Source: Cupriavidus necator N-1 (GTDB taxonomy: Bacteria > Pseudomonadota > Gammaproteobacteria > Burkholderiales > Burkholderiaceae). From it: 64,000 nt of DNA. Position numbers and translations under genes: made by a program. The notes under the pieces were generated by a model. The model worked only from the letters and a program-made list of their open reading frames with translations. It searched no databases and was not told the origin of the DNA. Location of the stretch: positions 3,410,001 to 3,474,000 of the forward strand of contig NC_015726.1 of NCBI RefSeq assembly GCF_000219215.1, given 5' to 3'. This document shows, piece by piece, positions 51,157 to 64,000 of the stretch (position 1 is the first letter of the stretch; every line of letters starts with the position of its first letter).

Positions 51157-51485
51157 TGCTTTCCTCTGTTATCAGCAAAGTGCCCTCGTCTATTCCGGTT
51201 CTGGGCGTCGGGGCTGATGGGGTGTTGTACATCGTTGCCCGGGTCGCTCCTGGCACGGGCCTGTATGCCGTCGGCCGCGCGATCATCGACGCGGGCTTCG
51301 GTGGGGTGCGCGATGTCAGCACGAGCGGCGTGACCCAGTTCTGGAAATTTCGGCGCGACACGCCGGAGGGCGAATTCCTTGAACGGCTGTGTTGCCTGGC
51401 AAGGCAGGGGCTGCCATTGCCGCCGCCGAACGAGGCCGTCGCCCTTCTTCGCGCCTTCTCTTGGGCCGGGGAGGTTCGCGTATGA
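51156..51485 (+). CDS. Small unknown island protein
   Basis: 109 residues, starting at ATG 51156 with GGGGAGG upstream and overlapping both neighbours by 1 and 4 bases. It contains GLYAVGRAIIDAGFGGVRDVSTSG and FRRDTPEGEFLERLCCLARQG; no signal or membrane segment. Not recognised. Tight coupling to the primase gene suggests a replication-linked role. Confidence 0.7.
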   Translation: MLSSVISKVPSSIPVLGVGADGVLYIVARVAPGTGLYAVGRAIIDAGFGGVRDVSTSGVTQFWKFRRDTPEGEFLERLCCLARQGLPLPPPNEAVALLRAFSWAGEVRV

Positions 51486-53863
51486 GCCACCGCGCCGAAG
51501 GTCACGATAACGCCGCCAGGTACGCGGTCATGCGCTACGCCAGCGAGAAGGATGCTGTCGGCAAGCAGTACGCGGGGACGTGGCAGCAGGTGGTCGCCTT
51601 GTTGGACAAGCGGGAGATCCGACCGGAAAAGTCGGGGAAGGCGTTCGCTCCCGTGCAGATGAAGGCGGGAGCAACGCGCTCGAAGGATAACGTGCTGGCT
51701 ATCTACATGGCCGTTGCCGATGTCGATACCGAGGGGGAGAAGGAAAAGGCCTCGGGGCGGGTGTTGTCGGTCTCGAAACGCGCACCAACGCTGGAGGAAC
51801 TGCGCCCCAGGGTTCAGTCCTATGCTTGGACGGCTTACTCGTCCCACTGGCATGAGCCTCAGCAGGGGGTTGTCAAATACCGAATCGTGTTCCCCCTGAC
51901 GCGCCCTTGCACCCTGGCTGAATGGCCGCAGGTCTGGGAGGGGTTGAACGTGCTGTTGGGCGGTCACTGCGACCGCGCTTGCCGGGATGCCGCTCGTCTT
52001 TACTACCTGCCGAGTTGCCCCGCAGATGCTGCCGCCGATGCGTTTTGCGAGACGAACGACGGCAAATTGCTCGACCCGGACACCCTGATCGAGCTTGCGC
52101 GCCGGTCTCCCACGCAGCAGCCTGTCGTCAGGACAGACGGCAATCCGCAGGGCTTGCCTGCACTCGCGAGCCTACCAGAAACGCCGGAGCAGATCGAACG
52201 GGTCAAAGCGATGTTGGCCATGATTCCAGCCGACTGTGGGTATCAGCAGTGGCGCAATATCGTGTGGTCCATCGCCGCGACCGGCTGGCGCTGTGCAGAG
52301 GAACTCGCGCGCGAGTGGAGCCAAACCGCCCCGCAGAAGTTCGAAGAGTCCGAGTACCACAATGTATACCGGTCATTCAAGCCGGGGGGCGGCGTCGGCT
52401 TCAGGACGCTCGTCTACCACGCAATGTGCGCAGGGTGGGTTGACTCGATCGGCCCTGGCGGCGCGAGCGGCCTTCCCGGTGCGAGCAGTGGCGATATTCG
52501 GAACGGGGAAGAGTTCGCGAAGCTGCACCGGGACAAGCTGTTGTTCGTGGACGAAACCCGCGATTTGCTGAAATTCGAAGCGGGTACGGGCTGGGTGGTG
52601 GCTCCCCCGGGCGAGGCCGACGTGGCGGCCAAGACCGTTGTCAAACATCTGTGCGTGAACGCCACAGAGCGTTGGAAGGCAGCGCCGGATGACGCCCAGG
52701 CCCGCCGCTTCATGAACGAGGTGCAGCGCAGCAGTCGCCTGCAGGGGGTCCGCGCCATGATCGAAATGGCGAAATCCGAACCCGGCATGACCGTTCGGCT
52801 TCACGAACTTGATGCCGATCCCATGCTGTTTGGAGTCAGGAATGGGGTTCTGGACTTGCGGACTGGGAAGCTGCGGGCACCGTCCCCGTCTCTGCGAGTC
52901 ACGAAACGCTGCCCGGTCGAGTATGACCCGAGTGCGACCGCCCCTACGTTTGATGCATTCATCCAGCGCATCACGCGTGGCACGCCCGCTCTCGCTCCGT
53001 TCCTCCAGCGATTGGCCGGCTACGTGTTGACCGGTGAGGTCAGCGAGCAGTGCTTCGCCTTTCTCTATGGCCTCGGTCGTAACGGCAAGACGACCTTCGC
53101 GGAGCTCTTGCAGTGGCTCCTGGGGGACTATGCCGTTCCTCTGCCCACGGCCACGTTGATGGCTGAAAAAACGGATCCCGGTGCGGCACGTCCTGACTTG
53201 ATGTTGCTGAAGGGGCGACGCCTTGCGCTCGCATCGGAACTGGAGGACGGTGCCAGATTTGCCGAGGCTGCGATCAAGGCAATGACGGGCGGCGACACCA
53301 TGCAGGCCCGCAATCCGTACGGGCTTTACGCGAGTTGGACACCCACTCACAAGTTGATGCTCGTCGGCAACCATAAGCCCGTCATTTCGGGGAGCGACTA
53401 TGGTATGTGGCGTCGGGTACTCTTGATCCCGTTCGCGGAGACCATCGGTGACAGCGAGCGCGACGACAAGCTGAATGAGAAATTGCGCAGGGAGGGTGCC
53501 GGGGTACTGAACTGGGCGCTGGCCGGATTCCGTGGCTGGCAGCAGCAAGGACTGAACCCGCCTCAAGCGGTCAAGGATGCCGTGGCCGTGTATCAGTCCG
53601 ACATGGACATCCTCAAACAGTGGATGGACGACCATGTGAACCCGGTGGCAGGGGCGGTCACCGCAACCGCCGACCTGTATAAGGCGTATTCGACCTGGGC
53701 ACGTGACGCGGGCTGGAAGACGCCCATGACGCGGATCGCGTTCGGGCGACGGCTCGCGGAACGCGGCATTCAATTGATCAAAGGAGGCCCAGGTAACACC
53801 AAGTGCGCGTGCGGAATTGCCTTGAACAATGAAGGCCAGAAGGCAATGTCACGTTTCTATTGA
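51482..53863 (+). CDS. P4-type primase-helicase
   Basis: 793-residue replication protein. N-terminal archaeo-eukaryotic primase-like module (VLAIYMAVADVDTE with the catalytic Asp80 and Asp82, then SSHWHEPQQGVVKYRIVFPLTRP), a PriCT-type linker around residues 235-325, a D5_N region, and a superfamily 3-type helicase with Walker A GLGRNGKTTFAELL near residue 530, Walker B LALASELEDG, and LVGNHKPVISGSDYGMWRRVLLIPF. ATG at 51482 overlaps the small gene by 4 bases. It implies the element can replicate by itself. Confidence 0.93.
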   Translation: MSHRAEGHDNAARYAVMRYASEKDAVGKQYAGTWQQVVALLDKREIRPEKSGKAFAPVQMKAGATRSKDNVLAIYMAVADVDTEGEKEKASGRVLSVSKRAPTLEELRPRVQSYAWTAYSSHWHEPQQGVVKYRIVFPLTRPCTLAEWPQVWEGLNVLLGGHCDRACRDAARLYYLPSCPADAAADAFCETNDGKLLDPDTLIELARRSPTQQPVVRTDGNPQGLPALASLPETPEQIERVKAMLAMIPADCGYQQWRNIVWSIAATGWRCAEELAREWSQTAPQKFEESEYHNVYRSFKPGGGVGFRTLVYHAMCAGWVDSIGPGGASGLPGASSGDIRNGEEFAKLHRDKLLFVDETRDLLKFEAGTGWVVAPPGEADVAAKTVVKHLCVNATERWKAAPDDAQARRFMNEVQRSSRLQGVRAMIEMAKSEPGMTVRLHELDADPMLFGVRNGVLDLRTGKLRAPSPSLRVTKRCPVEYDPSATAPTFDAFIQRITRGTPALAPFLQRLAGYVLTGEVSEQCFAFLYGLGRNGKTTFAELLQWLLGDYAVPLPTATLMAEKTDPGAARPDLMLLKGRRLALASELEDGARFAEAAIKAMTGGDTMQARNPYGLYASWTPTHKLMLVGNHKPVISGSDYGMWRRVLLIPFAETIGDSERDDKLNEKLRREGAGVLNWALAGFRGWQQQGLNPPQAVKDAVAVYQSDMDILKQWMDDHVNPVAGAVTATADLYKAYSTWARDAGWKTPMTRIAFGRRLAERGIQLIKGGPGNTKCACGIALNNEGQKAMSRFY

Positions 53864-55098: not shown

Positions 55099-56928
55099 CT
55101 ACAGCCACGGCACTGCTCGATCAAGGGCAAGCGGGATCATCGATTTCAATGTCAACTGCCGTGTAGAGTCCTTGTCTGACCTGTTATCCAACGTATGTTG
55201 TGTCTTCTTGTTTGCCTTCAACGTTAGCAGCATTCCGTGGCAACCTTGCGGCAAGCTCAACTCTTGGGTAGCGCCATGAGCATCGCGCCACAATCCGATC
55301 GAGCGAACCGGCTTGCTTTCGCGCCAATTTGAACGGTCAACCATTGCTGCACACGTGATAGAAAGTACCGATGAACCTGGATCATCAGCCAAAACCGTGG
55401 CGTATCGCGCCGGCCAACGCACACTGAGTTGTGGTCCATCCATGAGTAGTGCCACGACGAGGTTCGGGCCAACAGCACGAATAACGCTCATGGCTGGATC
55501 ATTCCGCGCCAGGTCTTCGCAAATTAACACTGTCAGCGACATATCAGGGCGCAAAGCGTAAAAAGGCAGCTTGCGGTTTGCCACATCGATGTCTTCCCAC
55601 CATTGCGCGGCTCGCCTGCCATCGGGAGCGGCTGCAAAGTCGGGAAAACTGAGCGCGTACCGAGCTACCTGACTTTCATCTAGACGCCAGCGATGATGCT
55701 TGAACTGTACGTCCATTATCATGCCGTCTTCGCCTATTTCATTGTTTTTGGGCACGACAACATGCGTCTGTGCAATATTCTTGGTGTTGCCACTGGCGTC
55801 ACGCTGCAGCGCGCCAGTAATAAGAAACTCAATTCCCTCCATGGCTAAAAGTTGCGCCACTTCCTGCCCAAGCTCCGCGGACAATGCACACTCCGGCAGC
55901 AGCACTCCGTGGATAATCTCGCCACGTGACTCTACCTTAGCTTTCTCTAGGAGCGGACGCAGGACCTCATTGACAACTATCTCAGCCGTAAGGTCCTGTC
56001 CTTCATCGTCCTTTAGCCACACTGGCTCCAAGCGGAAGTAGCCGGCTGTGTACAGATCATCTGTAAGCCTGCGCGGCTCGCGCGAAAGCGAAAAACTCTC
56101 GTCGGGGATATGAAACGGAAACGGTACCACCAATAGACGCATCAGCTCCAGCGTATTTGCACCCGGTGGATAGGCGCGGTCGGCCATACGCCAAGTCGGC
56201 TCGATCTGCGTGTACCCGGGTAGCAGCGCCAAATGATGGCTAAGTGAGCGCACGGTGCAGCCAACTGCAGCGGTCATGGACTTTGGCAATACAATCGCAA
56301 TGTCCATTGGTACGAGCGAGCACAGCGATGTCGGCGCATATGGCAGCAGGAGCCTGTCGACGGGGTCGGTTGGACTACTCAGCAGACTTGTCCGCGCCAG
56401 GTCCGCAATCTTAAGGTGAGCTAATTCAGTATCTTGGCCCTGCGTCTCTTCGACCTGCGTACCAGCATCCGTAGCTGAAGAATTGACTGGTGCTGACCAG
56501 CCCATGCCTTTACAGGCCTCGTCTGCAATTGCGAACAGTTTTAGTAGCAGGCGAGCCACATCTGTGTGCTCGCATACCTCGTCGATCTCAATATTAGTAA
56601 ACTCTCCGGTAAGTCGCTCCCAGAGACTAGTGATACCTGCGGGCACGGAAGATACGTCTGTCCATTGCCCGGCCAGTCGGCTGACCTCATTGAGATAGGC
56701 AACATGGCTATCGAGATCGTCCGGATCGGGGCCCGCCAACGTATAGCAACTCGAACGATCAACGAGCGTAGCTACGACGGCAAACAGATCCGGCGGCCAC
56801 GCAGGACACCGCCCCCAGTCTTCTTCGCTACTAGCATCCGCAGCGACGACTTCGCCATCGAGGATCGCACGGATACCATGAGCTGTACCTTCGGGCAGCA
56901 CGCTCTTGATAATGTCTATGATCTTCAT
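55099..56928 (-). CDS. Nitrilase-superfamily (carbon-nitrogen hydrolase) protein downstream of BREX
   Basis: 609 residues. Residues 1-240 are unrecognised, with a variable, acidic linker at 148-170. From about 260 to 560 it resembles the nitrilase/C-N hydrolase fold, with a possible Glu-Lys-Cys triad: Glu346 in LLPECAL, Lys410 in DVQFKHHRW, Cys470 in LICEDLARNDP. Nitrilase-type domains occur in some reverse-transcriptase defence proteins; here none is present. It is on the same strand as the BREX genes, after a 627-bp gap. Function unknown; a nucleotide- or amide-modifying effector is a guess. Confidence 0.75.
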   Translation of the reverse strand: MKIIDIIKSVLPEGTAHGIRAILDGEVVAADASSEEDWGRCPAWPPDLFAVVATLVDRSSCYTLAGPDPDDLDSHVAYLNEVSRLAGQWTDVSSVPAGITSLWERLTGEFTNIEIDEVCEHTDVARLLLKLFAIADEACKGMGWSAPVNSSATDAGTQVEETQGQDTELAHLKIADLARTSLLSSPTDPVDRLLLPYAPTSLCSLVPMDIAIVLPKSMTAAVGCTVRSLSHHLALLPGYTQIEPTWRMADRAYPPGANTLELMRLLVVPFPFHIPDESFSLSREPRRLTDDLYTAGYFRLEPVWLKDDEGQDLTAEIVVNEVLRPLLEKAKVESRGEIIHGVLLPECALSAELGQEVAQLLAMEGIEFLITGALQRDASGNTKNIAQTHVVVPKNNEIGEDGMIMDVQFKHHRWRLDESQVARYALSFPDFAAAPDGRRAAQWWEDIDVANRKLPFYALRPDMSLTVLICEDLARNDPAMSVIRAVGPNLVVALLMDGPQLSVRWPARYATVLADDPGSSVLSITCAAMVDRSNWRESKPVRSIGLWRDAHGATQELSLPQGCHGMLLTLKANKKTQHTLDNRSDKDSTRQLTLKSMIPLALDRAVPWL

Positions 56929-57555: not shown

Positions 57556-59664
57556 TTACGCGCGAAAAATATCTACCTTGGTTTCAAGGCACTTGCGTAA
57601 GCTCAGATCAGTCGCGCCCACCTCGAACCAGCTGCCAGGCTTCTGATAGAAGTCCAAGCCCCGACCGATCTTGATGATCCATCCGTTATCGAGGCGAATC
57701 TCGCGATCGTGCATATTGGGGTTGAGCTTGACTTCAAGTTCAACGTCCAGTTCCAAAAGGCTCTGCTTAAGCTCTTCCATCTTTTCGGCGATTTCCGCGA
57801 GCTGGGTCTTGTCGTCGTACCCGGTGATTAGATTGATCTTCTTCACCGTGTTGGACTTCAGGACAGTTTCGCAGAAGCGCACAAAGTTCTGGATCTGATG
57901 CTGGAGGCGGATGTATGGGTCTTCGATGACTACGACCTTCGCTCCCTGCAAATACGGCCCCAGGATCGACTCATAACTGTAGCCGGTGTCGCCATATAGG
58001 ATGCTGAAGTGCTGTTCCTTTAGCTCGACCGTTGTCGGCGTATGTGCCTCCCCCGCAGAAACCGGCGCAAGCGCCGTGGGGTCCGCTGAAGGCTCCGCCT
58101 CAACGGCCGGTGCGTGTTCAGCGCCTGCCTTCTCTTCCACAACCGAACCCAGTTGCTCCACTGATTGATTCAATCGGCGGCGAGCCGGCTGCTGTGTCGC
58201 TGCAGCATCCTTCGACTCCGGACAGAAGACCACAACCTCCTCCCCTGCCGCCTTGAAGTAAGACAGATTGATCAGTGCAAACTCATCGTCTGGTTTGCGC
58301 TTGTTCATCTGTTCCTTCACGCGTCGCCGGCACTCCGCGGCATAGGCAACGTACTCTTCGAACTCTTGGTCAGTCGGAGCGCCGGTCGGATGCAGGATTT
58401 TCAAAAATGCACAGACCGTCTTCTTGATCCCCTTCTCGTCGCGGCCCTCGATCGACTTGCCAAGCCGGATTCGCTTGCTCACTTCTTCGTACCGGTTGGT
58501 GTGTTTGAACTGGTAGTGGAAGGCCTCGGCCAGGTAGTCCGTGATGAATCCGTAGCGGCTCGTCAGGAACTCGCTGCTGTTCTTGGGCATCTCCCAGCCC
58601 GGAATGAAAGCGGCGAAGCGGTCCATCACAGCGAGATCCAGCTCGGGGGGCAGGGGCTGGAAGAGATCGTATTCGGTGGAGTTCACCACCTGTTGCACCG
58701 ACAAGTCGATATTGCCGACGAAACTAAGGCTTGCATCGGCAATGACCTCTGCCCCACGCGAAAAGCGGCCGTTTGCCATGAAGTCTTTCATGATCTGGAT
58801 GGTATCCGGATCACGCACCTTGATTCCGCCAACCTCATCGAAGGCGACGGTATCCCAATAGCCGACCAACCCCACCTTGCGTCGGGCATTGTTGTAAAAC
58901 AAGGTCGCTTTGGTAGCCTGTCCGCCGGAAATCAGTGTTGCGTAGGGCGAGAACTCACTGAAGAAGTACGACTTGCCGGTGCCGCGCGGCCCGAGTTCAA
59001 TATAGTTGTAGTTTGGCTCTACCAAGGCTGCAAGACGCGCGATGAAGTGCATCTTCACCCTATGTGAGAGTTTGGATGGCTCGAGGCCCACCGACCGCAT
59101 GATCACGTCGAGCCATTCATCACGGGTGAAAGTGGCGCGGCCCTCAGCATAACGCTCGAAATCAAAACGAGAAAGCTGGATCGGTCGTAGGTCCTCGATG
59201 TAGAAAGCGTAGTCGTCTTCCTCGATGTCGTTGTGCGACAGAGTCACCTCGGCCCAAATGCCCCCCTCCAGCAGTCGGTCGTTGTCCCGGTAAAACTTCT
59301 CACCGATTGCAATGCGCTGCGAATTGAAATTCTCCAGCGACGCCCAGTGGCGTTTTTCTTTTTCGACATAGCGGACGTGCACCTTGTCGATGAAGCGGTG
59401 CTTGCCTTTGGTAGCAACCTTGGATTGCGCGGCATTGGCCTCATCGGGCCGGACGTAATTGTCCTGCAGTGTTGCCAACACCGCTTCCATGCCCGCGTCC
59501 ATCTCTGCTTGGTCGTCGCTGGCGCAAAAGCGTGCCAGGAGAAACTCCAGAACGAAGGTCGGCACGTTGGTGCCCTTCTTGATGCGGTGGAGCAGGTCCT
59601 TGCGAACCACTTTGCCATCAAAGGCTGATGTCAGCTTCTGGTCGAGTGCATCTGGCAGGTTCAT
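57556..59664 (-). CDS. brxL: BrxL-type AAA+ BREX protein with MITD1-like C-terminal domain
   Basis: 702 residues. Residues 1-200 match BrxL-type N-terminal regions (FDGKVVRKDLLHRIKKGTNVPTFVLEFLLARF; RYVEKEKRHWASLENFNSQRIAIGEKFYRDNDRLLEGGIWAEV). The AAA+ core has Walker A GPRGTGKS (225-232) and Walker B VAFDEVGG (273-280). After a Pro/Ala/Glu linker (485-550), residues 551-702 are not Lon protease-like but match the MITD1 C-terminal domain: ILYGDTGYSYESILGPYL, VVIEDPYIRLQHQIQNFVRFCE, MHDREIRLDNGWIIKIGRGLD. ATG overlaps the pglZ stop by 4 bases. Confidence 0.93.
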   Translation of the reverse strand: MNLPDALDQKLTSAFDGKVVRKDLLHRIKKGTNVPTFVLEFLLARFCASDDQAEMDAGMEAVLATLQDNYVRPDEANAAQSKVATKGKHRFIDKVHVRYVEKEKRHWASLENFNSQRIAIGEKFYRDNDRLLEGGIWAEVTLSHNDIEEDDYAFYIEDLRPIQLSRFDFERYAEGRATFTRDEWLDVIMRSVGLEPSKLSHRVKMHFIARLAALVEPNYNYIELGPRGTGKSYFFSEFSPYATLISGGQATKATLFYNNARRKVGLVGYWDTVAFDEVGGIKVRDPDTIQIMKDFMANGRFSRGAEVIADASLSFVGNIDLSVQQVVNSTEYDLFQPLPPELDLAVMDRFAAFIPGWEMPKNSSEFLTSRYGFITDYLAEAFHYQFKHTNRYEEVSKRIRLGKSIEGRDEKGIKKTVCAFLKILHPTGAPTDQEFEEYVAYAAECRRRVKEQMNKRKPDDEFALINLSYFKAAGEEVVVFCPESKDAAATQQPARRRLNQSVEQLGSVVEEKAGAEHAPAVEAEPSADPTALAPVSAGEAHTPTTVELKEQHFSILYGDTGYSYESILGPYLQGAKVVVIEDPYIRLQHQIQNFVRFCETVLKSNTVKKINLITGYDDKTQLAEIAEKMEELKQSLLELDVELEVKLNPNMHDREIRLDNGWIIKIGRGLDFYQKPGSWFEVGATDLSLRKCLETKVDIFRA

Positions 59665-62189
59665 ACGGTGTAATCCGTTTCCAAATTGAGCGAGCAGTAG
59701 CTCGCCAAGGTCGTTGGGTTCAGCGCCTTTACCGAGAACTTGCCCTCGAAATCCGGTTCCATTCGCAGTGCAATCTGTTTGCGCTGCCCCGACATCAACG
59801 TCACAGTCCGTGTAGCCGGGTTCACGTCACCGCCTGGACGTGGCTCACCAACCACATTGCCCTTGCTGTCCTGGGCCTCTAGCAGGATTTCGACACTCAT
59901 CCCCTGTGAAAAGATATCTTCGGAGACCAGTATGACTTCGAGAACGGGAACTCGTGTGGTAATTCGTTTGGCGCCGCTCTTGTACGACAGCTCGACGTTC
60001 ACCTTGCGCAGCTCTGGCTGTTCGGCGGCATCGAGGCGAGCAATCAGCAACGGCACGACGGCCTCCGCCAACGATGCCCCGCCGTGGAAATAGAGGTGAC
60101 CGGATCGGTAGGGAGCCATGCTACGAGGCATCGCCACCTGTGCGAAATCCCCCCGAATGCCAACCTTCTCGGCACTGACGACCAGACTGTGGCTATCCGC
60201 CGCACCCTCACCTAGCATCATGCGGTCATGTGCATTAACCGGCCACTTGCCCTGAGGCTTGACGCAGACGTCACCAGCCTCCGCTTGGGCGTTAAGAAAG
60301 AAACCATGGTCCGTCACGATCACGGCTTCTTTGAAACCCATGCCACGCAGTTTGTGCAGAGCTACCCGGATCAGCTTGAGAGTGCCCGGGATGAGGCTGA
60401 GCGTCGTCTCCGGGTTGCTCTCCAGATGGCTGTCGATTTCCGTTGATCTCAGCACCAGCAGATCGACAGTTTCCGCAATTTTTGCTTTTCCGCGAACGAA
60501 ATCGTTCAGCACCATCTCATCGAAGCGGTCACCGAGGCGCCTTCTAAACGCATCCATGCGCTGGTTCACGTTACCTACCGGCGCCCCCGCCAACTTCGGG
60601 ATCAGGGATTCATTTTCGAGTGCCAATGTCAGCTTGGCGTTTGCCCCTGGCAGCAGACTCGCCATCCCAACCAGCGTGATGGTGGGCAACTGCGCGTAGG
60701 CAGCTTGCAGTTCGACGGGGCCGTCTTCGGCAAGCAGCTTTTCGAGCGCCACACCCAACTCGTAGCGCAAGGCGTCGACCATCAGGTAGGCGACCTTGCG
60801 ACCACTTTCCTTGAGCCGGTCAGCCACCAAGCGATCAAAGGCATCGGCATTCGCCATGCGACCGGTCGGTGGCCACCCGGCGGTCTCGACGTGTTTTACG
60901 AACACTCCCTGCACCTTTTCCGCGAGGCGGCGATAACGGGCTCGCGCTTGGCTGATCACTTCGTGCATCAAGCCGTGTTGATCGAGAAAATCGCCGACCG
61001 CTTGTTCAAACTCACGTTGAAGTCGATCCGCCTCGCGCAGACTCCCCAAGTAGAAGTCGAGCAGATCGGCTTGGGATCGGGCGTGATCCGGTAGCTGGCG
61101 CTCGTAGTCCTCGCAGGCCTCCACCAGGCTGAGTCCAGCCCGCACCAACTCCCACTGCGCCTGACTTTCGCCCTTGCCGCGCCATACTGAATTCTTGTGG
61201 CGCGCCAGCACACGGCGCGCGGCGTCGGTGTCATTGGACGTGACGCCCTTGATCGCCGTGCGCAGGAAAGTTCGTTCCTCAAATGGGAAGGTGTCCCGCT
61301 CGCCCAGGTCATCAATGGCACCGCACAGCTCGGACAGGTTCAACTCTGCCTCAATGGCCTCGGCCCGCTCGATATATACAGCGCGCGCCCTCGGATCGCT
61401 ACGCAGCCGGTCGCACACCTCCTCGACGATAGGCCGGGCTTCCATCGGTGCATGCGGCACGCCCTTCAGGGTGTCTGGCAATGCTCCTGGCAAGTCGAAG
61501 ACAAACTCGCTGAACAATACATAGCGCCAGAGCTCGTCTGCCAGTGCTGCCCATGTCTTGCCACGTGTCTTCACGGTCATGGCTAAAGTTGCCCGTAGGA
61601 AGTCGCGGGCCTCTTGCACCCACCCTTCCTGGCCTTTCAGCGCTTCGGCCTGGGCTGCGTTAGGTGCCAACAAAGCTGCAAGAATTTCGCGGCCGGACTC
61701 GACCTTCAGGGTGGCGCGTAGCTGCGGCCAACTCACTCCACCACCGATCGCGTCAATCACGGCAAACGTCGGCCCAGCCGACGATCCAGCAAACACCTGA
61801 CGAATCTCCGTGGCGTGATCAGGCCTGGCGCGCAGGCAAAGGCTCAAGTACTCGTCACCATCGTCTTGCGGGAACACCGCGCCGCACTCCGCGTAAAGTG
61901 CGAACGGGTCCGCCTGCTTTTGTTCTTCTGTTTCTGGCCGCCTGCTTGGCACATAGATCAGCACACCCTCGAGAGGGGCCTTGGGTTGTCCCACTTCCCG
62001 CAACGCCAGCAGCGCCGCCTCACGGCTTTCAATGCTGCTCTCGGCTGCGTCCACCACGCGCACCTTGTCGGCCGCCAGATCAAAGCACTGCTCGCGGTAG
62101 CGCCTATCGGCGTCGTACACCACCAGGCACCCCGCCTCTTTCAGACGCGGACGCAGCACACACTCTCTAATGAACTCGGCAATGGTCAC
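59661..62189 (-). CDS. pglZ: BREX phosphatase-domain protein PglZ
   Basis: 842-residue BREX core protein with an alkaline phosphatase-superfamily fold in the C-terminal half: metal-site Asp472 in AYLMVDALRYELG, LPTITLVGMASLLPG with a candidate nucleophile Thr/Ser (about 504-511), and VIVTDHGFF (626-629) for metal binding. The N-terminal 450 residues are the PglZ-specific helical part. It starts at GTG 62189, preceded by AAGGGGGCGCT. PglZ is needed for BREX host methylation and phage exclusion. It is translationally coupled to brxL. Confidence 0.94.
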   Translation of the reverse strand: MTIAEFIRECVLRPRLKEAGCLVVYDADRRYREQCFDLAADKVRVVDAAESSIESREAALLALREVGQPKAPLEGVLIYVPSRRPETEEQKQADPFALYAECGAVFPQDDGDEYLSLCLRARPDHATEIRQVFAGSSAGPTFAVIDAIGGGVSWPQLRATLKVESGREILAALLAPNAAQAEALKGQEGWVQEARDFLRATLAMTVKTRGKTWAALADELWRYVLFSEFVFDLPGALPDTLKGVPHAPMEARPIVEEVCDRLRSDPRARAVYIERAEAIEAELNLSELCGAIDDLGERDTFPFEERTFLRTAIKGVTSNDTDAARRVLARHKNSVWRGKGESQAQWELVRAGLSLVEACEDYERQLPDHARSQADLLDFYLGSLREADRLQREFEQAVGDFLDQHGLMHEVISQARARYRRLAEKVQGVFVKHVETAGWPPTGRMANADAFDRLVADRLKESGRKVAYLMVDALRYELGVALEKLLAEDGPVELQAAYAQLPTITLVGMASLLPGANAKLTLALENESLIPKLAGAPVGNVNQRMDAFRRRLGDRFDEMVLNDFVRGKAKIAETVDLLVLRSTEIDSHLESNPETTLSLIPGTLKLIRVALHKLRGMGFKEAVIVTDHGFFLNAQAEAGDVCVKPQGKWPVNAHDRMMLGEGAADSHSLVVSAEKVGIRGDFAQVAMPRSMAPYRSGHLYFHGGASLAEAVVPLLIARLDAAEQPELRKVNVELSYKSGAKRITTRVPVLEVILVSEDIFSQGMSVEILLEAQDSKGNVVGEPRPGGDVNPATRTVTLMSGQRKQIALRMEPDFEGKFSVKALNPTTLASYCSLNLETDYTV

Positions 62190-62371: not shown

Positions 62372-64000
62372 TCATTCCGCGCCCCCAACCTTCTTCCTGT
62401 CGCGCGCCTTTTTTGGTTGCCCCTCGGGCTCGACGTACAGATCCTCCAGTCCATGCGCTATGGCAAGCGATTTGTCGCTCTTGCACTTTTCACGCACGCA
62501 CTCGGGCCAGTAGTTCATGGCCAGATGCGCCCAGTTGAAGTCGCCTTTCTCCAGCTTGGCCCAAGTGTCCTTGATCACCTTCTGCCAGGGCTTGTAGCGA
62601 AACAGCGGCCACAGGGGCGCGGCAGTGATTTGAACGCCATCGTCGCGGTTCGGCTTGTAGGTGGGCGCGAGCTTGAGCAGGGTGTCGCGCAGCTCCATCA
62701 ATTCCAGCTCGAAGGTTTGAAGCGATTCGAATTGCTTTTCTTCTTCGCGTGAGCGGGCCGCGCCTTTATTGCGCAGCGCGACCACATCGTTACCCACCTG
62801 CTTGAGCTTGGGTTCTATGAAATCATTGATCGCCGTGTAGAGCGTCTGGCTGCTCAGGCTGGGGTAGTAAACCCACAGCGTGTAGCTACCTGACGTCGTG
62901 GCCAGCGGCCAATAGATGGGCGCCTTGCGGCGGCTCTTGGAATAGCGCTGTAGATGGAATGCGAAGAAATCCCGTTGCAGCCAGCGGCGTACGTCGAACG
63001 GTACCGGTGCATCGACGCGAACTAAGGCCTCTTCCATCAAGCGGGCAAGGTCATTCGGGTGGCCGGGGTCGTCGACCAGAATGCCTGCGTGAGCATGGAA
63101 GGGCGTGGCTCCGTCCGGCAACATTCCAGGAGACTTTGCGGGCAAGGGATCGAATGGTTCTGGCTCTGACGGCGCTTCGCGCTCGCCAGTTGCTAGTCGC
63201 CAGTCGAAGCGGCCAAAAGCGACTCCGACAGCCCAGCTGAGTAGAGTGTCGGTGGACGGCAGATCTATTTCACTGCCCTTCTCATCTTCACTGTTTGACT
63301 CATCCTCGTCGCCTCCCTGTGAGTCTTCCTCTCCGCCAAAACACTCTCTTATCTGGCTGAGCGTAAGGCAGTCTGCTTCCGTTAGGCCGTAAAGATCAAA
63401 CGCAATGGCGTCGACCTTGGCCTGAATTACCTTGAGTTCTAATTCGACCGTCGCAGGACTGAATTCGCCGAGCCTTCCGCGGATGGCAGCGGGCAGTAAG
63501 AACGCGTGTGAAGTTTCAATAACCGAATCGAGACTCCTCCTGATCGACCAGCCGCGCTTAGCAAGGCAAGAAAGCTCTTCGCTTGTATTCTCGTTGATCT
63601 TTGGGATTGGCAATTGATTGATCAATCCCGTTTCATATTGCACACCTCCCACTTTGCCCGCAAAGAGGCGCACCAGATGATCGAGCGGTCCAGAATTGAA
63701 AATGCCCGCCAATGCAAGCAATTCACCTTTTGGCGCCAAGGCGACTTTGCCGCCGACGCTGAAGATGCATCCTTTTGGGACTAACTGCGCTGAGAACGAG
63801 ATACCGCGTAGCGGCCAGGTTAGAGCGGGTCGAAAGTAGTAATCTAGAGCCTCCGGACGATCCAGCCAACGGCCGGGTCTGCCGACAAAACCCCTAAATG
63901 TTTCCCGAACATCGTCCCAGTCAACCACTTGTTGGATGTCAGAATAGAAACGAGAGAAACTGCCACCTTTTGTAAATGGAACCCACCGGCACTTGCTTTT
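62372..64000 (-). CDS. pglX: BREX adenine-specific DNA methyltransferase PglX, C-terminal part
   Basis: The frame stays open through the right edge (about 542 codons visible), so only the C-terminal part is present and the NPPY catalytic region lies beyond the window. The visible start CRWVPFTKGGSFSRFYSDIQQVVDWDDV matches the PglX segment after the methyltransferase core (WVPYNKGGEFRKWYG-NVVNWEN type), followed by a target-recognition region (SFSAQLVPKGCIFSVGGKVAL, GIFNSGPLDHLVRLF) and a C-terminal helical region. PglX modifies one strand of the BREX site. It precedes pglZ and brxL, as in type 1 BREX. Confidence 0.9.
   Translation of the reverse strand, partial: KSKCRWVPFTKGGSFSRFYSDIQQVVDWDDVRETFRGFVGRPGRWLDRPEALDYYFRPALTWPLRGISFSAQLVPKGCIFSVGGKVALAPKGELLALAGIFNSGPLDHLVRLFAGKVGGVQYETGLINQLPIPKINENTSEELSCLAKRGWSIRRSLDSVIETSHAFLLPAAIRGRLGEFSPATVELELKVIQAKVDAIAFDLYGLTEADCLTLSQIRECFGGEEDSQGGDEDESNSEDEKGSEIDLPSTDTLLSWAVGVAFGRFDWRLATGEREAPSEPEPFDPLPAKSPGMLPDGATPFHAHAGILVDDPGHPNDLARLMEEALVRVDAPVPFDVRRWLQRDFFAFHLQRYSKSRRKAPIYWPLATTSGSYTLWVYYPSLSSQTLYTAINDFIEPKLKQVGNDVVALRNKGAARSREEEKQFESLQTFELELMELRDTLLKLAPTYKPNRDDGVQITAAPLWPLFRYKPWQKVIKDTWAKLEKGDFNWAHLAMNYWPECVREKCKSDKSLAIAHGLEDLYVEPEGQPKKARDRKKVGGAE

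Follow-up and report, generated by a model that had tools for sequence, protein, structure and literature searches.

A BREX BrxL protein of Cupriavidus necator N-1 ends in an MITD1-type phospholipase D-like domain that may add a DNA-cutting step

The BrxL gene and its domains

We analysed a stretch of 64,000 nucleotides of Cupriavidus necator N-1 (NC_015726.1, positions 3,410,001 to 3,474,000 of the forward strand; hereafter the window), which holds the brxL gene of a bacteriophage exclusion (BREX) operon. A preliminary description of this DNA had proposed that the encoded BrxL ends in a domain like that of eukaryotic MITD1 where a Lon protease domain would be expected. Translation of the open reading frame (ORF) and domain profiles gave the following layout.

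57556..59664, minus strand: BrxL with an MIT_C tail, 702 aa (ORF translation and domain profiles)
59236..59625, minus strand: BrxL_N, residues 14-143 (PF20442, 151 bits)
58276..59205, minus strand: BrxL AAA+ ATPase (BrxL_ATPase), residues 154-463 (PF13337, 402 bits)
57997..58254, minus strand: Ala/Pro/Glu-rich linker, residues about 471-556
57562..57984, minus strand: MIT_C, phospholipase D (PLD)-like, residues 561-701 (PF16565, 178.5 bits; match to MITD1 structure 4a5z; model and fold match)
57688..57711, minus strand: HxRx4D site HDREIRLD, residues 652-659 (conservation)

The codon for residue 551, from which the preliminary description counted the tail, begins at 58014 of this minus-strand ORF. 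Read by eye, the Walker A (GPRGTGKS, residues 225-232) and Walker B (VAFDEVGG, residues 273-280) motifs are apparently intact. In the NCBIfam scan of the 702-aa protein the BrxL core profile TIGR02688 scored 479 bits, above its cut-off of 329, and the PADLOC BrxL model PDLC02508 reached 996 bits over residues 5-701 (profile positions 2-694 of 698). The latter model was also matched by 56/56 domains of our alignment A4. These matches, BrxL_N, BrxL_ATPase and the neighbouring PglZ, PglX, BrxC, BrxB and BrxA confirm that the gene is a brxL in a BREX operon.

The tail is of the MITD1 type and replaces the Lon-like domain

The Pfam scan matched the tail to MIT_C (PF16565) over the whole profile (1-142 of 142), with an E-value of 8.7e-53 and 178.5 bits (cut-off 25). 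MITD1 entries in the PDB were matched by phmmer at E 1.5e-37 and 4.4e-37, and BLASTP showed 70/143 residues identical between the tail and MITD1. A model of the tail had a predicted local distance difference test (pLDDT) score of 94.6 and a template modelling (TM) score of 0.95 to MITD1; its predicted fold is that of the PLD superfamily HKD enzymes. Two of the checks named in the preliminary description, a Pfam profile search and a structural model, thus returned an MITD1-type domain. The MITD1-like motifs quoted there were found at residues 558-572, 582-599, 612-618, 652-671 and 689-700, with one spacing to be corrected (L-xx-C, not L-x-C). As judged from its sequence and its model, the BrxL tail is a folded domain of the human MITD1 type. 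It is extremely improbable that the match arose by chance or from sequence composition, or that a Lon domain was misread; nothing was found in favour of this, and it is refuted by the profile, phmmer and model results given above and by the recurrence of the fusion in 78/80 loci (see below).

Human MITD1 differs from the window protein in that its C-terminal PLD-like domain (PDB 2ymb, 4a5z) is fused to an MIT domain that binds ESCRT-III (endosomal sorting complex required for transport III) and is not joined to an AAA+ domain. Its site carries Asn where the window BrxL has Asp (D659). No MIT domain, the N-terminal ESCRT-III-binding part of MITD1, was found by Pfam in the 702 aa up to E 1. Passages of PMC6015221 describe membrane binding by the PLD-like fold of MITD1, and its MIT domain is treated in PMC9477494.

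Alignment with the structure of a Lon-type BrxL (8emc; phmmer against the PDB) was confined to residues 6-470. TIGR02653, a profile which includes the Lon-like tail, covered residues 6-485 and ended at profile position 483 of 675, with a score of 549, short of its cut-off of 628. Five BrxL proteins that have no MIT_C served as controls and reached positions 672-674 of 675. Pfam and NCBIfam scans of the 702-aa protein found no Lon domain, the proteolytic kind with a Ser-Lys dyad, past residue 485. Hence, the C-terminal Lon-like domain, the commonest BrxL form, is missing from the 702-aa BrxL, and the MITD1-type domain lies at its position, as had been proposed. Acinetobacter BrxL (8emc, 8emh) shares the N-terminal and AAA+ domains with the window BrxL (residues 6-470), whereas at its C-terminus it carries a Lon-like fold that is inactive (PMC10164562). 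The preliminary description had also contrasted the variant with ordinary BrxL as 'not proteolysis'. The tail indeed holds no Lon domain, but this does not distinguish the variant: ordinary BrxL, too, is described as lacking a protease active site in its Lon-like tail (PMC10164562; PMC12839542). Public records for the proteins of three loci (L017, L018 and L022) read 'Lon protease-like' despite an MIT_C tail.

Conservation of the H-x-R site

HDREIRLD follows the H-x-K-x4-D pattern with Arg replacing Lys; a canonical HKD comparison row (L185) reads HQKFAIID and then GSVN. Conservation was assessed in 137 distinct domains with more than 100 bits each, of which 128 belong to BrxL and 9 to other proteins, where distinct means not letter-identical and many are close relatives; three rows outside the search pattern were read by eye. 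The Arg was kept in 137/137, none having the Lys of H-x-K-x4-D, and the His in 136/137 (Q in L148). The eighth residue was D in 127, N in nine and S in one. A thinned set of 61 rows (62 representatives minus L188 and the PglZ-BrxL chimera L028, plus the window) had ten invariant residues: G561, Q590, H652, R654, G661, R668, G669, L670, D671 and R690. Human MITD1 has 10/10 of them, with N at the position of D659. At the sequence level, the H-x-R-x4-D site is almost invariant.

Relation to described BrxL variants

The preliminary description allowed that this architecture might already be in databases. It is, as Pfam MIT_C and as PADLOC PDLC02508, a profile named BrxL and silent on function, and it is in print in a 2026 paper (PMC12839542, Nucleic Acids Research). 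This paper reports a C-terminal 'HKD-endoDNase' in 1030/2913 type-1 BREX taxa with BrxL, where the Lon-like domain is replaced, a K-to-R exchange gives an HRD motif and nuclease activity is expected; it credits an earlier publication, a reference on Menshen. From its text, we read this 'HKD-endoDNase' as the MIT_C tail. Like the window BrxL, the variant described there has the Lon-like part replaced, an HRD motif and a type-1 BREX context. The paper considers that the domain is probably an active nuclease, although its BrxL section and related passages gave no activity data, and its main text does not contain 'MIT' or 'MITD1' as whole words. PF16565 is listed with BREX in PMC12715929, the only paper found for this accession elsewhere in the openly licensed literature, where MITD1 together with BREX returned only a cancer review; such absence is weak evidence. 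The PLD-type nucleases SauUSI, NgoAVII R and BfiI, as well as Tdp1, have the PLD superfamily fold in common with the MIT_C tail. The window BrxL belongs to a variant already in print and databases. Added here are the identity with MITD1, the site residues common to both and, outside the scope of the literature search, fusions to dynamin, DruE, Sel1 and IF2_N parts.

The BREX operon and its surroundings

The following genes precede brxL in the window.

59661..62189, minus strand: PglZ, 842 aa (PADLOC PDLC02561, 1497 bits)
62372..64000, minus strand: PglX C-terminal half, 635 aa, extending past the window end (PDLC02532, 1262 bits for L002:12373-14280)

The end of pglZ overlaps the start of brxL by four bases. 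Upstream of PglZ, on the same strand, lie in order the 635-aa PglX C-half, a C-half-like gene of 389 aa and a PglX N-half of 629 aa, and farther upstream a 145-aa ORF, a UvrD-like helicase of 756 aa, BrxC (1214 aa), BrxB and BrxA. The operon is a full type-1-like BREX. NCBIfam left PglZ untyped, with a best match to BREX-6 (170 bits, cut-off 400).

The split PglX spans L002:12373-17332 (window 62372-64000 and beyond). The 389-aa gene shares 38% identity with the 635-aa C-half over the first 240 aa and 89% over the last 142 aa, the middle being absent, and resembles a spare part for specificity. In the 32 loci where both PglX halves could be seen, they were read by eye as one frame in 19, two frames in 12 and a broken gene in one (L019). 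The UvrD-like helicase is located past the window end between BrxC and PglX (L002:17706-19976). Downstream of brxL, there is a 609-aa protein (55099-56928) in which, by eye, the E, K and C of LLPEC, FKHHRW and LICED resemble the pattern of a nitrilase; it had no Pfam, NCBIfam or PADLOC match and nothing in the PDB below E 0.7. We rejected it as a system component, there being no relative in 126 loci except the window's own. A P4-family primase-like gene (51389-53863), about 3.7 kb beyond the brxL end, may mark a mobile island.

MIT_C on other proteins

The domain was also found outside BrxL. Two proteins combine Dynamin_N with MIT_C, one of 947 aa from a Thiodictyon plasmid (L020) and one of 959 aa (L127:9277-12156). 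In the latter locus (L127:4669-14999) the dynamin-like GTPase-MIT_C comes directly after CBASS genes for a cyclase, an AAA protein and a SAVED effector, and precedes a PD-(D/E)XK protein. Two DruE-like helicases carry an MIT_C-like domain at their end (L189:3663-9734, 2023 aa; L190:3860-9955, 2031 aa), the first scoring 56.8 bits, above the Pfam cut-off, and the second 17 bits, below it. A 1065-aa protein (L191:9113-12310) has MIT_C followed by Sel1 repeats; its locus also contains an SNF2 helicase nearest to DpdE, a methylase of the Eco57I type and a further protein whose matches are Mrr-like. Finally, in a 349-aa protein of a Paenarthrobacter plasmid (L021:9440-10489), MIT_C is combined with IF2_N; the annotation around it lists no BREX gene. 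DNA systems make up three of the five bacterial fusion settings, BrxL included; a fourth involves a membrane-type GTPase, and the fifth is unclear. The dynamin, DruE, Sel1 and IF2_N fusions therefore point to MIT_C as a mobile module that occurs mainly in defence loci.

Distribution of BrxL-MIT_C

A GTDB scan confirmed 244 relatives, of which the best 80 were retained. In 78 of these 80 the BrxL core is in the same frame as MIT_C; the other two (L085, L123) are apparent remnants. As named in their records, the best 80 include Proteobacteria, Chlorobi, Cyanobacteria, Planctomycetes, Acidobacteria, Chloroflexi and Actinobacteria. Seemingly stand-alone MIT_C genes (L123, the same locus as L132; L187; L085) were judged by eye to be likely remnants. 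BrxL linker letters are present in L123 and a few in L085 and L187; the L085 and L187 loci yielded no BrxL core.

Whole-genome scans were counted above the MIT_C cut-off, with the centre genome included each time. MIT_C occurred in 4/299 genomes of the window's family and 7/398 of its phylum, and in the phyla of the Chlorobiaceae (20/345), Lacipirellula (4/216), Leptolyngbya (13/244), Propionibacterium (4/198) and Anaerolineae (3/151) loci. A few of these matches are weak or false, namely an ABC transporter (L163) and L156, L176 and L177, distant at best. ABC transporters at 15-27 bits (L013-L016, L163, L164 and others) were rejected as false, L163 even lying above the Pfam cut-off; the proteins of about 310 aa in L156, L176 and L177 (32, 31 and 24.7 bits) may be distant relatives. 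BrxL was present in 7/138 phylum genomes, the window's included: three have MIT_C (the window's among them) and four are of the Lon type.

Among plasmid records, 24 had an MIT_C domain (E up to 1e-3) versus 315 with a BrxL core (E up to 1e-10), the latter set being rich in Acinetobacter and E. coli. One relative of this kind, on plasmid pTHIMO01 of Thioflavicoccus mobilis, has a BREX operon and a domain that is 70% identical. No E. coli copies of brxL-MIT_C were found by blastn, a method blind to distant ones. MIT_C gave zero matches across 50,697 phage records, and for this reason the 24 IMG/VR contigs that have it (L023-L046; 17 at 67-93% identity) may represent mobile islands, or else wrongly filed bacterial DNA.

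Descent of the tail

In our trees human MITD1 clusters with HDRE-type BrxL tails (support 99/93). A tree placing MITD1 outside all bacterial BrxL rows plus the Sel1 row was not rejected (p 0.25), and we therefore do not take a nesting of MITD1 inside BrxL as established. A constraint that excluded the Sel1 row too was rejected (p 0.003) and is uninformative on MITD1. These trees contained one eukaryotic sequence and left out L021, and archaea were never deliberately searched; an earlier tree with the two DruE rows was set aside for its end branches of 6 and 10. Two separate swaps from Lon to MIT_C were considered and dropped. The core tree had rejected a single MIT_C clade (approximately unbiased test, p 2e-42) because the broken gene of L019 was labelled as without MIT_C; with L019 removed, a single clade was not rejected (p 0.44).

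Possible functions of the tail

In this type-1-like BREX BrxL the inert Lon-like tail is replaced by an MIT_C-family PLD domain, and we see about an even chance that this domain adds a DNA-cutting step. BREX would license BrxL on unmodified phage DNA, where an ATP-driven ring would load. PLD domains tethered to the ring would have their HRD sites in pairs, and these may cut or nick the DNA backbone, a nuclease step which Lon-type BrxL lacks. Arg in the place of the catalytic Lys would bind phosphate and His would act as the nucleophile, as it does in other PLD enzymes. Lon-type BrxL forms rings on DNA and requires its ATPase for restriction (PMC10164562). Several points weigh against cutting: the catalytic Lys is lost from the site, MITD1 itself and the Dynamin_N-MIT_C fusion have to be reconciled with it, phage DNA is not degraded by BREX according to PMC10164562, and Salmonella BREX functions without BrxL (PMC12839542).

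MITD1 and the dynamin fusion would be accounted for by membrane recruitment, which the preliminary description had suggested beside oligomer scaffolding. The tail would bind acidic phospholipid as MITD1 does and draw either phage DNA held by BrxL or the BREX complex itself to the inner membrane, the place of phage DNA entry; the HRD pocket would bind lipid phosphate, and cutting would be unnecessary. We consider this somewhat unlikely. MIT_C is net acidic (median charge -4, range -14 to 3, in 128 BrxL domains), which is odd for an acidic lipid, although human MITD1 is alike (-5) and a local basic patch is possible. Moreover, the BREX and Druantia partners are DNA machines, and the invariant H and R exceed the needs of simple adhesion. 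Recruitment is not our preferred reading, given that the PLD site is almost invariant and that three of the five fusion settings are DNA systems.

Single-motif PLD proteins usually act as dimers, and a pseudo-enzyme tail could take over tail-to-tail ring pairing through PLD-type dimers. Such scaffolding fits the position of the tail: the C-terminal domain of Lon-type BrxL, which has no protease motif, dimerises rings tail-to-tail (PMC10164562), and the swap occupies the same place in the chain. We nevertheless regard this structural replacement as unlikely. The linker between BrxL and MIT_C (median 74 aa, range 37-124, in 128 distinct BrxL-MIT_C proteins) suits a flexible tether more than a rigid ring contact, and conservation of the site His and Arg would be left unexplained.

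Turning back to the proposed DNA-cutting tail, it is present in about a third of type-1 BrxL (1030/2913, PMC12839542), and its activity therefore bears on how BREX stops phage, a mechanism still debated. More tentatively, the membrane-binding domain of MITD1 and the anti-phage tail might be one H-x-R domain, employed in machines of cell division and of immunity alike. Either the ESCRT cofactor of eukaryotes would then carry an immune effector domain of bacterial origin, and might have gone unnoticed as a phosphodiesterase, or the domain would let BREX, Druantia and dynamin-type proteins act at the membrane. The close match to MITD1 makes the activity of the bacterial and the human domain addressable by one assay, and the question of the HRD site extends from cutting by the bacterial domain to a possible role of the human domain beyond that of a membrane tag.
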